Source of the DNA: Chitinispirillum sp.
GTDB taxonomy: Bacteria > Fibrobacterota > Chitinivibrionia > Chitinivibrionales > Chitinispirillaceae
DNA length: 42,714 nt
Reading direction: 5' to 3'
Assembly: GCA_007115975.1 (NCBI GenBank)
Contig: SKJJ01000022.1
Span: 1-42,714 of the forward strand
Of the stretch, positions 1,854 to 40,620 are shown one piece after another (the stretch's first letter is position 1; each line of letters opens with the position of its first letter). The position numbers and the translations under genes are program-made. The notes under the pieces were generated by a model. That model worked only from the letters and a program-made list of their open reading frames with translations. It did not search any database and had not been told where the DNA came from.

Positions 1854-4800
1854 ATGTTTTTCAAAGACAATACAATCATTACAAGGACCCTGGTTCTTTT
1901 ATTGATGGTGATTATGCCTGCTATGCTTTTTGCGGACGCCGCATTTGAGCAGCTTATGGCTGAGGCCAAGTATGAAGAGGCGCTCAATTATGTCGATAGC
2001 AATATTCCTCCACCACAGCGAACACCCGAAATTTGGGTTCAGATTGCACAGGCCAATGATCAACTTGGTATGGTTGAGAAGGCGCTGGCAAGTTATCTTG
2101 TCTCATGGCGTATCAACCCAAATGATTACCACTCGTTAATGGGTGCTGCTACAATTTATAACAGGCTCAATCAGTTTCAAAATGCGTTCAATATGTCCCA
2201 GAGTGCACTCCAACAGCAAGTCACTTATGAGGCAAGCAGGATATTGGTAACCGCTGCAATAGAGCTCAACAAAGTTTCGGAAGTAAAAAGTGCTCTTGAG
2301 CAGGTGATTGCAAGGGAGCCCGATGATGTTGTTGTAAACAGGGAACTTGGAAATCTCTACTACAAAGAAGGTGATTACGTGAGGGCTGTTCCGCTTCTTA
2401 AAGTCGCCCTGCAGCAGCAAAAGAGCGGTGAGATGAATTTCAGGGTGGGTAAATCCTATCTGCAAACGGGTGTCCCGGACAGTGCTCTTGTCTATCTGTA
2501 TAAAGCGCTGGAGAGTGCAACGAATGTTTCGGAAGCTGCGTTGCTTAGTGCTCATGCACATTTGAGCTTGGGTGATTTCAAGGCTGCGGCTGAAAACTTT
2601 GAAAAAGTAGACGAATCCATGATGACCGCTTCTGATCACTACCACTGGGCTGTAGCAAAAAAGAGAATCGGTGATGCCGGGGGAGCAGAAGCAGCCTACA
2701 GGACTGCAGTGAGCAGTTTCGGTCAGGATACCTCAAAAAAGGCTCTCCTGGCGCGGGAAAAAGTGGGCTTGGCTGATTTTCAAAATAAGGAGCATGATGC
2801 TGCGCTCGCTCACTTTACATTCATTGTGCAGGCAGATAAAGACGGAGCTGTTGTACCTGCAATCTATTTCCATCTTGCAGATGTAAGTCAGGCCATGGGC
2901 AATAGCGTTGACGCAATATGGTTTCTTGTAGATGCAATTGAACGTGATGACAGAAATATTGAGGCCTATGCCCGTCTTGCAGACCTGTATGAGAAAAACA
3001 ATATGTCTGAAAAGGCAAAAGAGACCTATGAGACCATGATTGCTCTGGATCCAAATGACCCGTCAGTTTTCCTTGCCCTTGGACAGTATAATCTGGAATC
3101 AGGGCGTTACCACGAGGCGATGGAGCATTTCCAAACGAGCAATACACTCACCCCAAGCGCAGCTGCCTCTGAGGGCTTGGCCATCGCTGCTTTTAGAGCT
3201 GCAAATCTTGCCACGGCTGCTGCTGCTGCTGAAATGGCGCTCAGTCTTAATGAAGATGCCTGGCAAGCAAGAAAAATCATAGCTGAGGTTCTTTATCGAA
3301 AAGACAACTTCTCTGCTGCCCTGCCCCATTTTAAGGTTATGGTTGAAAGGGAGCCAGGCAATATTGAGTTTCTTCAAAATCTAGCCAACTGTTATAGACA
3401 TAATAATCTCAGAGACAAACTGGCCAAGGTGGACAGAAAAATCACTCAAGTCGATCAGTCTGATGCGCACAGTCGCCTTCGTCTGGCATTGTATGCAGAT
3501 TCAAAAAATGACTTCGAAACTGCACTGGAAATGTACAATGATCTTGCTTTACTTACACCAAATAACCAACATGTTTTTAAAAGGATTTTCGAGATCTCAC
3601 ATGCCAGGCAGATGTATAAAGAGGCAATCGAAGCGATGAGAAAGTATATCGCCATTGCGCCCCAGGAGGCTGAGGCGCACAGGGATCTTGGTGATGCGCT
3701 CTATGAGGTGGGGGCCTACGACTGCGCTCTTGAGGCATACAGAGAAGCAATCGCCATAGATCCTAACATTAGGGGGTTCTACCAAAGGTATGCGGAAATT
3801 GTCATCGCACGGGGCGAGCATGGTGAAGTGATCAAGGCCCTTACTCTGGTGATTAATTCCGGTGATGCTGATTTTGGAACCTATACTACTCTTGGTATGA
3901 TCTATCAGAGAAGAGGCGAGCATCAGGATGCTATAAAAATGTACAGCCAGGCTCTCACAATGGACCCTACAAACACCGATGCCCTCACCGCTCTTGGGGA
4001 AAGCCAGGTTGCAAGTGGCGATCTGGGAGGTGCCATTATCTCTTATGAACAGGCTGTTATGATGAATCCTGATGCGCAGCAGGAGTATCGAAAGTTGGGC
4101 GACATCTACGCCAAACAGCAACGAGCAGAGGATGCCATGAGGGCATACAAAAGATATCTGGACAGAAAACCGGATGACCAGGAGATCGCCCGCAAAGTGG
4201 GGAAATTTGCCCATGAGAGCAGTGAGTATGAGGAGGTGATAACCTATCTTGGGCCAATTGTTCAACAGGCCGACAATACAAACCTCTTTGTTATCTATGC
4301 AAATGCACTCTTTAAATCAGGGGATTATGTCAGAAGTGTGGAGATAGTGGAGAGCATAAAGGGTAGAAAAGAGCTCAAAGCGCCTGAAAAAAGAGACGTT
4401 CTTAGAATGCTGGCCCTATCCTACGAACAGAAAAATGATCAAAAGGGTGCCGCACAGGCCTACCTTCAGTATATTGCTGTCGCCGGCACAGATGATCCTG
4501 ATGCTGCCTATAGAGCTGCATATCTTCTTGAGCAATCAGATAAAAAAGCTGCTGTCGTACAGTATGAAAAAAACATGAAGAGTTATCCTGACGATATCAG
4601 AAACGTTCTGCGTTTAGGGCTTCTCTATTCAGATAATCAAGAGACTGCTTCCAAGGCGTTGCCGCTGCTCCAGCGTAGTATCGCTGTGGCCGATTCCTTG
4701 CCACAAGTGTGGCTTGAGATGGCGCGTATACACGGAAGCCTTGGGGATACCGACAAAGAACTGGAGGCGTACAACAGATATGTGCAGTTTGATCCACAGA

Positions 4801-35582: not shown

Positions 35583-35656
35583 TGTTTATAGGGAAAACGG
35601 GCTGAATGTATTTTTATCATTTCCTAAAATCTTCTATTTTCCAGGGACTTTTGATT

Positions 35657-37384
35657 ATGATATTTGGAAACAGAAAGAATAAGCTGCTGTTAAGTTTAGG
35701 GATTTTTCTTGTAACTGGATGCGCTTACTTTAATGTATTCTACAATGCCAACCAGGCATATGATATGGCGCAACGAGAGCATAAAGAACTTATGGAAGAC
35801 CACCCGGACAGTCTCTATGTACATCCTCCCACAGGGGTCGTTTCAAATTACCAGAGAGCCATAGAGAAGTCGGCAAAGATGATGGATCTGCATGAGGAGA
35901 GCAGGTGGAATGAAGAGGGCGTTTTTCTCATCGCAAAATCATTGTATTACAAGGGTGACCATTTTCTGGCTTTACGACAACTCCGTTCCTTTCAGGAGCT
36001 GTATCCTGAAAGTGAACATATCCCCTTAAGCTATCTCTATAAAGCAAAGGCCAATATTATCACAGGAAATCTGGCAAAAGCAGAGGAACAGCTTGAGTTT
36101 ATTGTCGATAATTTCCCCCATATGGACAGTGATCATCAAATCACAATGCTTTTGGTTGAAGTAGCGCACAGGCGCGGAGGACGCTCTCAGGCGATTAACC
36201 TTCTGGAAAGAATTCTTCAAACCCCTCTTTCTGATATGGAAAGAGCACGGTTGCTGTTAAAAACAGCTGAGCTCTATATTGAAATGGGCCGTTTTGAAAG
36301 GGCTTATGGACTTCTGAACACCGTTCCAAGAAATCGTAGAACCCGGCAGATGCCTTTTATCTACAAAGTTGACCGGGCTCTGCTTGAATGTTATATGCAA
36401 AGAGACACACTCGATGTCGCTCTCGAATTTGTGGGGCAGATGGTTCGTAACAGGACATATTTTACTTATCGTGATGAGCTTTTGCTGGAAATGGGGTACA
36501 TATTACGGGATATGGACAGGACTGATGAAGCAATAGAGGTCTTCAACCGCTTGGCACGTGAGGATGAAACCGATCGTTCCACTATCTCCGGCAAAGCATG
36601 GATAGCCCTCGCAGACATATATCTGAGGCAAATAGGTGATCTTGAGAAGGCCGGGGACGCCTACTCAAATGCAGCAAGAACAACCGATACCTCTGTTTCA
36701 AACTTTGCATCCCGAAGGTTTGATGCCATTAAGCAGTTAGAGCTTCTGCGAAATCCTGATTCAACAGATACAAGAACACAGGAGTTGCGGGATTACAAGG
36801 TCGCTGAACTTTTCAAATTTGAGCTGAAAAATCCCGATTCCGCATTTTTTCAGTTTGTTAAGTTGTCTCAAGGGGACTGGGAAGATACGACTCTTATTCC
36901 CCGGTCTCTCTCTATGGCAGCCATTATTGCCCGATCTGAAATGGGGGATACTCTAACCTCTGACAGTCTCTTCAATGAGGTGATCGGCAACTATCCGGTA
37001 AGTAAGTATGCTCGTAATGCACAGATTATAATGCGTGCACCGGTAACTGTCGAGACCGATGTCGAGCTTGCTGATAAGGAGTACAGAAAAGCAGAAGAGC
37101 TCTACTACAATGAAGGAAATACTACAGAAGCGATACGAGTCTTCTTCAATATACACCGAGATTTTCCGGAGCTGGAAATTGCGCCAAAAAGTCTGTATGC
37201 CGCGGCCTATCTTACCGACAATGAACTGCAGAGAAACAGATCTGCAATGACGCTGTACCAGAGACTATGTGAGTTGTACCCGGAGAGTGAATACTGCACA
37301 CAAATGGCTGAACCACGAATCAATGCCGCACAAAATGCCATTGATTCCACGCAGAGCAGAGCCGTTGAAACCCGCACCGAATAG
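35657..37384 (+). CDS. TPR-containing lipoprotein
   Basis: From ATG 35657, with AGGGA upstream, this is a 575-residue lipoprotein. The signal segment ends in L-V-T-G-C, giving a lipidated Cys22, followed by A-Y-F-N-V-F-Y-N-A. An upstream ATG at 35606 is in frame but would bury the lipobox 17 residues further in, so I reject it. The mature part is a series of TPR-like helical pairs (about 60-330 and 440-560), including Y-Y-K-G-D-H-F-L-A-L-R-Q-L and L-Y-P-E-S-E motifs like those of outer-membrane assembly lipoproteins such as BamD and YbgF. A role in envelope assembly or secretion as a scaffold is inferred. I recall similar C-A-Y-x-N-x-F-Y-N-A proteins in Fibrobacterota. Confidence 0.8.
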   Translation: MIFGNRKNKLLLSLGIFLVTGCAYFNVFYNANQAYDMAQREHKELMEDHPDSLYVHPPTGVVSNYQRAIEKSAKMMDLHEESRWNEEGVFLIAKSLYYKGDHFLALRQLRSFQELYPESEHIPLSYLYKAKANIITGNLAKAEEQLEFIVDNFPHMDSDHQITMLLVEVAHRRGGRSQAINLLERILQTPLSDMERARLLLKTAELYIEMGRFERAYGLLNTVPRNRRTRQMPFIYKVDRALLECYMQRDTLDVALEFVGQMVRNRTYFTYRDELLLEMGYILRDMDRTDEAIEVFNRLAREDETDRSTISGKAWIALADIYLRQIGDLEKAGDAYSNAARTTDTSVSNFASRRFDAIKQLELLRNPDSTDTRTQELRDYKVAELFKFELKNPDSAFFQFVKLSQGDWEDTTLIPRSLSMAAIIARSEMGDTLTSDSLFNEVIGNYPVSKYARNAQIIMRAPVTVETDVELADKEYRKAEELYYNEGNTTEAIRVFFNIHRDFPELEIAPKSLYAAAYLTDNELQRNRSAMTLYQRLCELYPESEYCTQMAEPRINAAQNAIDSTQSRAVETRTE

Positions 37385-37557
37385 GGAAATCTCAATTGTA
37401 ATGAAAAATCTGCCCTGTCAGGAAAAATAGAAGAGGGTACTTCTTCTGACTCAATGAGAGGGTCGGAGAAGTTGTGCTATCAGAGGGAATATCAGCGATG
37501 GGCTGATGAGGTGTAGTTCTGGTGTTTGGGACTCACGATCAAAATAAAAATCATGGA
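37385..37557. other. left part of the long gap before the caspase operon
   Basis: This AT/GC-mixed sequence has no coding frame. GAAGA (37421-) and TTCTTC a few bases on could form a short hairpin after the TPR gene, without a clear T run. Nothing else is recognised here. The remainder of the gap (37558-37763) holds the nested inverted repeat. Confidence 0.35.
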
Positions 37558-37734
37558 TATGCACTTGATTGGTGTTTAGGTAGTTCCGCTCACACTGAGC
37601 GTCCCGATTTCCGAATCGGGACAGGCGAGCTGTTCCCCTTTTCTGGAAAAATGTAGGAACACTTCGATACGGCCGATCGGAATCGTCCTACTCAGTGTGA
37701 GCGGCAAGATGTGCCACCACCAGTCAAGTGCATA
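37558..37734. repeat. nested inverted-repeat element with cloverleaf-like fold
   Basis: The outer arms are TATGCACTTGATTGGTG (37558-37574) and CACCAGTCAAGTGCATA (37718-37734), which pair at 16 of 17 positions, the other being G-T. The next stem is CCGCTCACACTGAG (37586-37599) with CTCAGTGTGAGCGG (37691-37704), 14 of 14. Inside are a hairpin GTCCCGATT/AATCGGGAC (37601-37622), a second TGTTCC/GGAACA with inner TTTTC/GAAAA (37631-37661), and a weaker third CGAT/ATCG around CCGATCGG (37665-37685). It ends 30 bases before the sigma factor frame. It could be a structured leader RNA, an independent RNA or a small mobile repeat. I do not recognise a known family. Confidence 0.85.
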
Positions 37735-37802
37735 ATAGGTAAGAAAGATGTAGCGGTTTATCGGTGTTCAGTCGTCTTAATGATAGAAAAGGGGAGACTG
37801 AT

Positions 37803-38309
37803 TTGGGGTCAGAGTCTTCAGGTGAATTACGGGATTTATACAAACAATATGCCTCAGTGGTTCACTCCCGCTGTGTATCAATTTTGAAGTCTGAAGATGA
37901 TGCATGGGATGCTACTCAGGAGGTTTTTATGAAGCTTAATAGAGCTCTTCCTACAATCAGAAACAAACAGGCCATTTTCTCCTGGCTGATGAGTGCCAGT
38001 ACCAATCACTGCATATCAGTGCTCAGAAGAAGAAAAACCATTGAATTTGATGAGAATATTCATCGGCAGGGTGAGGCGGATATCCCTGTGCAGGAGAAGA
38101 AACTGGCTATGAAAGAGCTGTTCAGGCGTTACTTTCTGCCCTGGAACAAAAAGGTCCAGCAGGTGCTCTTTTACACCTATATAGATGGATATAAGCAGCA
38201 GGAGATAGCAAAACTCACCGGGCTGGGGGAATCTACAATCAGAAAATATCTTACCAATTTTCGCCGGGCCTGTGGTGCTGGGGAAGTTAAGCCTGAGGAG
38301 GTATTATGA
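37803..38309 (+). CDS. ECF-like sigma factor of the caspase operon
   Basis: This is a sigma-70 family protein of 168 residues from TTG 37803, where GGGGAG (37791-37796) is well placed. An in-frame GTG at 37764 would add 13 residues but lacks a ribosome site. Region 2 has L-Y-K-Q-Y...D-D-A-W-D-A-T-Q-E-V-F-M-K-L and F-S-W-L-M. Region 4 has Y-K-Q-Q-E-I-A-K-L-T-G-L with S-T-I-R-K-Y-L. It is diverged from typical ECF factors, notably in region 2 (S-T-N-H-C-I-S-V-L-R-R-R). The stop overlaps the anti-sigma start by four bases (ATGA). The nested repeat directly upstream may control it. Target promoters are unknown; autoregulation is likely by analogy. Confidence 0.82.
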   Translation: MGSESSGELRDLYKQYASVVHSRCVSILKSEDDAWDATQEVFMKLNRALPTIRNKQAIFSWLMSASTNHCISVLRRRKTIEFDENIHRQGEADIPVQEKKLAMKELFRRYFLPWNKKVQQVLFYTYIDGYKQQEIAKLTGLGESTIRKYLTNFRRACGAGEVKPEEVL

Positions 38310-39106
38310 AACAGGAACCAGGACGGCTTGCACTTCAGAGATATTTCACCGGTGACCTTGAAGATGCCGATGCTCTTGAAATCAGATCTCATTTGGAAAA
38401 CTGTGCTGAGTGCAGCAGATACATAGAAGAGCTTGAAGCTGAGAAAAAACGTTTTTTGAATCTTCATCCGGTTGAAGAGTTTCTGGCTGCCGGTAAAAAG
38501 AAAAAAGTTCTCTTTGGGTTACCTGGTGTTATCCATTCTAAAGGATCTCTGGTGCCTGCATCGGTAGTGGCTCTGCTGTTACTTTTTATAGTTGCTCCTC
38601 TATGGTTTGCAGCTGTAAAAAACAGCAATGTACAGGAGTTTAGATATAAAGGATCGCAACAAATTCAGTTTCTGCTTAAAAGAGATGGAGTAATAGAGAA
38701 GGGGAATCTGTCTGAAACTTTCAGAGATGGTGACCAGATACAGGTTATGTATGAATCCTCAGGTTACCCTTATGTGGCTCTTTTCAGTGTTGACAATAAG
38801 GGTAATATTCATTTCTATCATCCGGATCACAGCTCTCTGTTCTGTACAGTTGATTCAGATTCCGGCACCGGTGCCTATTTCCCTTCGAGTATCATTGTCG
38901 ATGATCAGGGTGAGAATGAGCTCATAGTACTCATGCTCTCCAATGATGCAGTGAAAACAGTTGATGTAAAAAGTTGGATAGAAAATCAGCCTAAATTTGG
39001 TGGTCGTGATCTTGTTGGTCTGGAAAGTCAGCTGCAGTCAAATGTCCTTGGAGATGATTCTGAAATACACACTCTTTTAATAAGAAAACAGCAGGGAAAA
39101 CAGTGA
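38306..39106 (+). CDS. anti-sigma factor with outer DUF4384-like domain
   Basis: This 266-residue membrane protein has a ZAS motif His29-x3-Cys33-x2-Cys36 in its cytoplasmic part, which should hold the preceding sigma factor. One transmembrane helix lies at about residues 83-103. The outer part (about 110-255) has G-D-Q-I-Q-V-M-Y-E-S, Y-V-A-L-F-S-V-D-N-K-G-N-I-H-F-Y-H-P and a Y-F-P-S-S segment. This resembles DUF4384, a beta-rich domain I know from bacterial proteins that also carry caspase domains. Here it is on the anti-sigma factor while the caspase is the next gene. The start has GAGGAGG upstream, and the stop overlaps the next start (GTGA). The domain call is by eye. Confidence 0.8.
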   Translation: MKQEPGRLALQRYFTGDLEDADALEIRSHLENCAECSRYIEELEAEKKRFLNLHPVEEFLAAGKKKKVLFGLPGVIHSKGSLVPASVVALLLLFIVAPLWFAAVKNSNVQEFRYKGSQQIQFLLKRDGVIEKGNLSETFRDGDQIQVMYESSGYPYVALFSVDNKGNIHFYHPDHSSLFCTVDSDSGTGAYFPSSIIVDDQGENELIVLMLSNDAVKTVDVKSWIENQPKFGGRDLVGLESQLQSNVLGDDSEIHTLLIRKQQGKQ

Positions 39107-40620
39107 GAACGACAGCTTTTTCCCTTTGGGTTTTCTGTGTTGTCTCGCTCTGCGCTGCAAATCAGCGGTATGCCCTTCTTGTTGGGGCAGACCGGGGTGG
39201 TGATGAGCTTGCGGTATTAAAGTATGCCCAGTCGGATGCACAGCGGTTTGCAAATGTACTCAAAGGCCCGGGAGAGTTTTCTGATGGAACTATTACTACT
39301 CTTCTTGCCCCGGACAGCGCAGCGATTCACAAAGCACTCAATAAAATCAACGATGTTATACAGAGTAAACCTGATAAGAATACACTTCTGCTGTTCTATT
39401 ACTCCGGACATTCTGATGGGGAGTATCTGTTATTCGAAAATGACAGGTATCCACTTGGGAGTGTGAAAACCTTTCTGGACTCTTCGGGTGCAGATATCAG
39501 AATTGGAATATTTGATGCTTGTTATAGTGGTGCGGTTGTTGCATTCAGGGGTGGGAGGCGCGGTGATCCCTTCTTCATGGCCAGCGAAGAGAAAGTAAAG
39601 GGACAGGTGATAATATCCTCTTCTGCTGCTCACGAACGTGCCCAGGAGTCAGAGACTCTTCAGGGGTCAATATTTACCCACCATTGGCTTAACGGACTTA
39701 AAGGCAGCGCAGATCTTGATGGGGACCGGTATGTTACCCTGAACGAAGCCTATCGGTATGCCTATCATAAAACCATAGAGACATCAGCTTTAACCGGTGG
39801 TGGTCTGCAGCATCCTTCGTATCATTTCAATATTCAGGGGGAAGGTGAAATCCGCCTTACCAACCTGAACCGCTCAGTTTTAAGCGGTGTACTGTTTGAT
39901 AAAAGCTGTCATGGTGCATTTCTGGTTCTAAGCCCCACATTTGCAAATGTGTATGCTGATTTTAACAAGAAGAGCGGTAAAGAGACCTTTATCGCTCTTG
40001 CTCCCGGTGAATACAGTGCAATTAACGGCAGGGAAAGTGATGTTTATATAAAGCACTTTTCGGTCAGTGAAAGTGAGACGGTATATCTGACCAATAGCAT
40101 GCTGGTAAACAGACCTCTGGTTGATGTGACAAGAGTAAAAGGGCCTGAGCAGGCAGAATATGCACCTGCAACTCCGATTAATTACGATGATGCAAAGCTA
40201 AGTAAGTCAATTCAGTGGGGGCTTGGTACAGGTGTAATCTCTGGTTTCTGGAGCAACAGAGGTGCAGATATTTTACTTTCTGCTGTGGGGGTTTTCCCTC
40301 TGGAGGAGGAGAGAAGTCTGTATGGTGATCTGCAGGTTTTGCCCCTTAGAAAAAAGGTAGCTATTGGTGCCGGGGCCAATGTGTATAATCCCGTACTTGA
40401 CTTTGATATGTTTGCCGGAATGGGGGCTGCGCTGTGGTATGACCATCTCGGAGCCGACAGATTTGCACTTGCAGTACGGGCACAAACCGGTTTCAGCAGA
40501 AAAATCAGTGAGAGTATGGAGATTCAGGCACAAATTCCTTTTCTGTTTGTTTTTTCACGGGATATAGGGTTCAGGACCGGGATCGAAATGAGGGTGCTCT
40601 TTTCGGGAAATCGTTTGTAG
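39103..40620 (+). CDS. exported caspase-family (C14) protease with C-terminal beta-barrel-like domain
   Basis: This 505-residue protein starts at GTG, coupled to the anti-sigma gene. A signal peptide (about residues 1-19) is followed by a caspase-like domain (about 22-245). The catalytic His103 lies in Y-Y-S-G-H-S-D-G and Cys140 in D-A-C-Y-S-G. Prokaryotic caspases cut after specific residues, often Arg or Lys, in target proteins. A middle beta-rich part (about 250-360) follows. Residues about 370-505 look like outer-membrane strands, ending I-S-E-S-M-E-I-Q-A-Q-I-P then G-I-E-M-R-V-L-F. That tail resembles the end of the next protein, so the protease may be anchored in the outer membrane facing the periplasm. 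Its substrate is unknown; the anti-sigma outer domain is one candidate. Confidence 0.85.
   Translation: MRTTAFSLWVFCVVSLCAANQRYALLVGADRGGDELAVLKYAQSDAQRFANVLKGPGEFSDGTITTLLAPDSAAIHKALNKINDVIQSKPDKNTLLLFYYSGHSDGEYLLFENDRYPLGSVKTFLDSSGADIRIGIFDACYSGAVVAFRGGRRGDPFFMASEEKVKGQVIISSSAAHERAQESETLQGSIFTHHWLNGLKGSADLDGDRYVTLNEAYRYAYHKTIETSALTGGGLQHPSYHFNIQGEGEIRLTNLNRSVLSGVLFDKSCHGAFLVLSPTFANVYADFNKKSGKETFIALAPGEYSAINGRESDVYIKHFSVSESETVYLTNSMLVNRPLVDVTRVKGPEQAEYAPATPINYDDAKLSKSIQWGLGTGVISGFWSNRGADILLSAVGVFPLEEERSLYGDLQVLPLRKKVAIGAGANVYNPVLDFDMFAGMGAALWYDHLGADRFALAVRAQTGFSRKISESMEIQAQIPFLFVFSRDIGFRTGIEMRVLFSGNRL

Follow-up and report, generated by a model that had tools for sequence, protein, structure and literature searches.

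Among the closest described counterparts of the repeat discussed here are the GTAG- and CGTC-tagged REP dimers (Di Nocera et al. 2013, PMC3733652) and the REPINs (PMC3116915). Certain REP types, such as GTAG-15 of A. variabilis and CGTC-1 of H. neapolitanus, are nested in longer palindromes; most REPs are situated downstream of genes, and many of them are plausibly transcribed (PMC3733652). Our locus is a nested palindrome of 177 bp, at positions 37558-37734 of the window (the whole stretch of 42,714 nucleotides that was analysed), upstream of an operon of three genes for which Pfam returned Sigma70_r2/r4, zf-HC2, and Peptidase_C14 (caspase). The initial annotation had offered three readings of it: a structured leader that controls the operon; a stable small RNA; or a palindromic mobile repeat. 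From the evidence below, the palindrome most likely is the remnant of a mobile repeat and not a control RNA. We know of no REP family described in Fibrobacterota.

Position-by-position pairing of the palindrome confirmed the two stacked stems that had been reported: 16 of the 17 positions are matched in the outer arms, and all 14 in the inner ones (37586-37599 and 37691-37704). The three hairpins said to lie inside them also pair, namely the perfect one listed in Table 1, a second at 37653-37691 (12/16), and a weaker one at 37626-37666 (9/11); however, the last two share bases, so that these two exclude each other and the three hairpins cannot form simultaneously. Likewise, the cloverleaf-like plan is a possible inner fold, but one among several of nearly equal stability, the MFE structure representing 0.6% of the ensemble. 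The claim that the pairing exceeds chance held on both strands when 37550-37740 was folded as RNA: the MFE was -87.1 kcal/mol (z -7.69) on the plus strand and -84.0 kcal/mol (z -7.93) on the minus strand, and in neither case did any of 200 shuffled sequences (0 of 200) reach the observed value. Given this near-equal stability, a DNA palindrome fits as well as an RNA. The element is intergenic, ca. 170 nt behind a TPR gene and between co-oriented neighbours. Its end lies 30 nt before the sigma-factor frame, which opens at 37764, and ca. 69 nt before the likely start of that gene, in agreement with the distances first given (30 and about 70). Alignments with the sigma homologues begin near codon 14 of this frame.

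Table 1. Features of the palindrome and of the start of the downstream operon
Feature	Position	Strand	Evidence
Left outer arm, TATGCACTTGATTGGTG	37558..37574	+	16/17 paired with right arm; matches IS1595-family terminal inverted repeat
Right outer arm, inverted IS1595-type end	37718..37734	-	Pairing and sequence match
Left REP-like unit	37586..37638	-	Degenerate GAACAGCTCGC motif, CCCGATTC/GAATCGGG hairpin, CTCAGTGTGAGCGG arm
Right REP-like unit, GGAACACTTCGATACGGCCGATCGGAATCGTCCTACTCAGTGTGAGCGG	37656..37704	+	Unit pattern matched exactly over 37657-37704
Whole inner inverted REP-like dimer, 119 bp	37586..37704	none	Perfect 14-bp ends; z -7.1 when folded alone as DNA
Internal hairpin, GTCCCGATTTCCGAATCGGGAC	37601..37622	none	Perfect 9-bp stem
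Predicted ECF-type promoter	37750..37779	+	-35-like GTAGCGGTTT at 37750-37759; -10-like CGTCTTA at 37773-37779
ECF sigma factor gene	37803..38309	+	Probable TTG start, 37803, preceded by ribosome-binding-site-like AAGGGGAG

The element is highly repeated in its own genome (3.89 Mb in 236 contigs). The BLAST search for further copies that the initial annotation had suggested, run with 37540-37750 at E<=10, returned 88 matching pieces; dozens of copies are scattered over the genome, the outcome that the initial annotation had said would argue for a mobile repeat, and the third reading is thereby supported. Copies gathered by sequence searches and as individual stretches were compared side by side, and gave a unit of ca. 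50-60 nt with the layout GAACXCTTCGA, a variable insert, and CTCAGYGTGAGCGG. The units mostly occur in inverted pairs with a variable spacer between them, and the inner 119 bp of the window palindrome are such an inverted (head-to-head) dimer. The arm CTCAGTGTGAGCGG has 67 matches in the genome with at most one mismatch, versus 0 for the reversed-letter control. The gapped pattern of the full unit is found exactly 35 times in this genome and 22 times in the congener (G001), and 0 times in the other six genomes searched and in the reversed controls. The type of the left unit also occurs elsewhere in both of these genomes, and a 48-nt match on another contig (C197:10991-11038) is identical in sequence to the exact match of the right unit. 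In all, 29 inverted dimers were recovered, with lengths of 66 to 209 bp. The arms avoid long reading frames: only 7 of 71 lie within ORFs of at least 150 aa, which hold 74% of the background bases. When 40 relatives were searched with the element's own DNA, matches came from the congener alone (27, with 0 at its operon locus); G016, a genome from another genus of Chitinispirillaceae, also has the unit in a shortened form, and this suggests a patchy distribution. Searches for the unit sequence in plasmid records and in the literature gave no match.

The initial annotation had held that a lack of compensatory changes would argue against an RNA function. Such changes exist across the dispersed copies, within single units and far less across the two long stems. 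The variable positions X and Y within the unit stay complementary: of 48 units, 23 have the pair A-T, 21 C-G, and 1 T-A, and in the dimers 43 of 50 within-unit pairs are complementary, with 3 G-U pairs in addition. As many copies share ancestry, these figures count sequences, which are not independent events. Both X/Y states are present within one insert class in the congener. When the two long arms of each dimer are compared, on the other hand, the matching position agrees in only 12 of 29 cases, and heterodimers are common. Since changes compensate within units far more than between arms, what this dispersed repeat conserves is the hairpin of the single unit, in line with REP-type repeats; the perfect 14-bp stem of the window copy reflects two units of the same type.

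The outer arms match the ends of an insertion sequence. TATGCACTTGATTGGTG has 16 matches in the genome versus 2 for the control. On two contigs (C77 and C192), at the left end of the insertion sequence, it precedes the frame MEDYPKTLTELENRFSTENACKEY by ca. 35 bp, and this frame is truncated by the end of the contig; on three others (C126, C127, and C170), at the right end, it comes directly after the stop codon that closes a frame with the C-terminus ...KKEEVYNF or ...KKEEIYNF. The C170 frame matches the C-terminus of NF033547 transpos_IS1595 (NCBIfam) with an E value of 4.3e-8, below the curated cut-off. From this match and from the presence of TATGCACTTGATTGGTG on both sides of the transposase frame, we infer that the outer arms represent both ends of an insertion sequence of the IS1595 family, a family recognised here only by decayed remains and by frames that the contig ends truncate. 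A search for the IS1595 DDE domain in four genomes, including our own assembly, gave no intact transposase gene; as the fragments break off at contig borders, the body of the insertion sequence probably failed to assemble. The IS1595 family makes target-site duplications of 8 bp. The flanks of the window copy share no 5-8-mer, and the duplication may have been lost by age; together with the degenerate state of the left unit, its lack makes it likely that this copy is old.

The same inner unit is found within several outer frames, so that the whole is a mosaic. At the strict threshold, these frames are of the AGGTGTTAAGTTAAG type (25 arms), the GACCCAGCCCC type (10), the ACCGGTGTTTTTCAG type (5), and the IS1595 type (3). 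The IS1595-type frame occurs in four copies only (C110, C76, C3, and C48), and the window copy alone has both outer arms within the strict threshold. With so few copies, and a single one with both strict arms, this frame could have survived by chance instead of being a mobile composite. We also observed a second, larger mosaic repeat, CATAGGTGTTAAGTTAAGG...CCTTAACTTAACACCTATG, that frames many inner dimers (C35:52782-52972 of the same genome, and others).

We therefore hold with considerable confidence that the palindrome is one copy of a dispersed non-coding mobile repeat, a REP-like dimer within IS1595-family ends, either MITE-like or a nested composite. The unit most likely spread as non-autonomous DNA, in the form of a single-stranded or cruciform hairpin, with a transposase acting in trans. 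To obtain the IS1595-type frame, the dimer may have inserted between the ends of the insertion sequence or may have been captured by a MITE, and the composite would then have inserted downstream of the TPR gene, ahead of the promoter of the sigma/zf-HC2/caspase operon. Any effects on the neighbours would be incidental; possible ones are the ending of TPR read-through or an altered DNA shape just upstream of the -35 element. RAYT-type genes are the usual candidates for mobilising such repeats. Y1_Tnp (RAYT-type) genes are present in the genome, among them three that encode RAYT-type Y1 transposases of 334-338 aa (contigs C126, C77, and C154), and the one of these three that was checked has a weak DnaA-like C-terminal match. 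A RAYT link of the unit was rejected: no unit adjoins any Y1_Tnp gene among the loci examined in seven genomes (our own and relatives).

Another reading takes the dispersed copies as putative transcribed RNA hairpins, that is, 3'-end stabilisers or terminators such as the enterobacterial BIMEs, the window copy then forming the 3' end of the TPR transcript. Its intergenic place after the TPR gene, flanked by co-oriented neighbours, the within-unit compensatory changes, a weak terminator-like site at 37618-37636, and the general position of REPs behind genes and their plausible transcription (PMC3733652) all agree with such a role; however, the fold is about as stable on one strand as on the other, and recognition of a DNA hairpin by a transposase would keep the same compensatory changes. 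We consider this reading unlikely, albeit compatible with the mobile repeat as a side effect. A more elaborate proposal, to which we give little credence, is that a composite unit with IS1595-type ends carries REP-like dimers as cargo, thus joining two unrelated transposition systems (a DDE transposase for the outer ends and a hairpin-recognising enzyme for the inner units), and that the copy 15 bp upstream of the -35 element alters expression of the caspase operon.

The operon itself is well kept. The genes for the sigma factor, the anti-sigma-like zf-HC2 protein, and the caspase stand side by side in each of the eight Chitinispirillales relatives whose upstream regions were compared, and the TPR gene is upstream of them in six (35606-40620 in the window); this retained grouping points to a stable caspase module. 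Motif scans of the upstream regions in the window and the eight relatives found, shortly before the sigma gene in 9 of 9 sequences, a -35-like motif (GAGC or AGCG, then T-rich) and a -10-like CGTCTA (CATCTA in G016) at near-constant spacing, and from this conservation we predict an ECF-type promoter. Its position directly before the operon suggests that the operon may be driven by the sigma factor that it encodes. In G016, a 14-nt sequence, CTCAATGTGAGCGG (C211, about 3058-3071), has one mismatch to the repeat arm and overlaps the -35 motif; this match is probably fortuitous.

These data bear on the leader reading, in which a structured 5' region of riboswitch-like or attenuator type would control the operon. 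The palindrome does lie upstream of the operon and its fold is very stable, but the predicted promoter is situated outside it, 15 nt downstream of its end, so that the predicted transcript begins beyond the palindrome, which cannot then serve as its leader. Moreover, the palindrome is missing upstream of the orthologous operon in all eight relatives (G001, G006, G008, G016, G003, G009, G005, and G024), dozens of copies lie elsewhere in the genome, and Rfam gave no match in the whole window at the gathering threshold. Very probably, then, the palindrome is not a leader of the caspase operon, and we attach a minimal probability to this reading. That the palindrome encodes a stable small RNA is hardly credible: beyond the stable fold nothing specific speaks for one, the region holds no sigma-70-type promoter-like site, its origin is repetitive, and Rfam returned no family beyond an insignificant snoRNA match (E 1.6, the only one in 37400-37830 at E<=5).

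The mobile-repeat reading thus removes a tempting but, very probably, wrong lead, namely that an RNA controls a bacterial caspase operon, and adds one REP-like family from Fibrobacterota. The better-supported regulatory feature is the conserved ECF-type promoter directly before the sigma/caspase operon, family-wide.

Compared with known systems, the locus differs from a cis-regulatory RNA leader in that the palindrome lies outside the predicted transcript and is not kept in the orthologues. With the IS1595-family MITEs it shares outer arms near-identical to IS1595-family ends of its own genome (decayed copies) and an interior without coding capacity; unlike them, it has no target duplication at the window copy, few copies with the IS1595-type frame, and as its core a REP-like dimer in place of a shortened transposase gene. 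It resembles the mosaic small dispersed repeats, or nested palindromes, in that one unit resides within several unrelated outer repeats, the comparison of the unit sequence covering Fibrobacterota and the plasmid records. It departs from the RAYT-mobilised REPINs and REPtrons, as no RAYT gene is flanked by the unit at the Y1_Tnp loci of the seven genomes, and from the GTAG/CGTC REP super-family, whose units bear one of these tags unpaired at an end, as neither is conserved here: of 71 tetramers at the T-motif end, 29 read CAGG, 19 TAGG, and 6 GGGG, and the tally has no GTAG or CGTC class. The units are also longer than those of REP dimers, BIMEs, and REPINs, at 32-60 nt with a variable insert. 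With these latter repeats it shares a short palindromic unit with compensatory changes, in many copies (67 arms and 35 full units) that are intergenic, and frequent inverted dimers (29), including heterodimers of different stems, with structured spacers.
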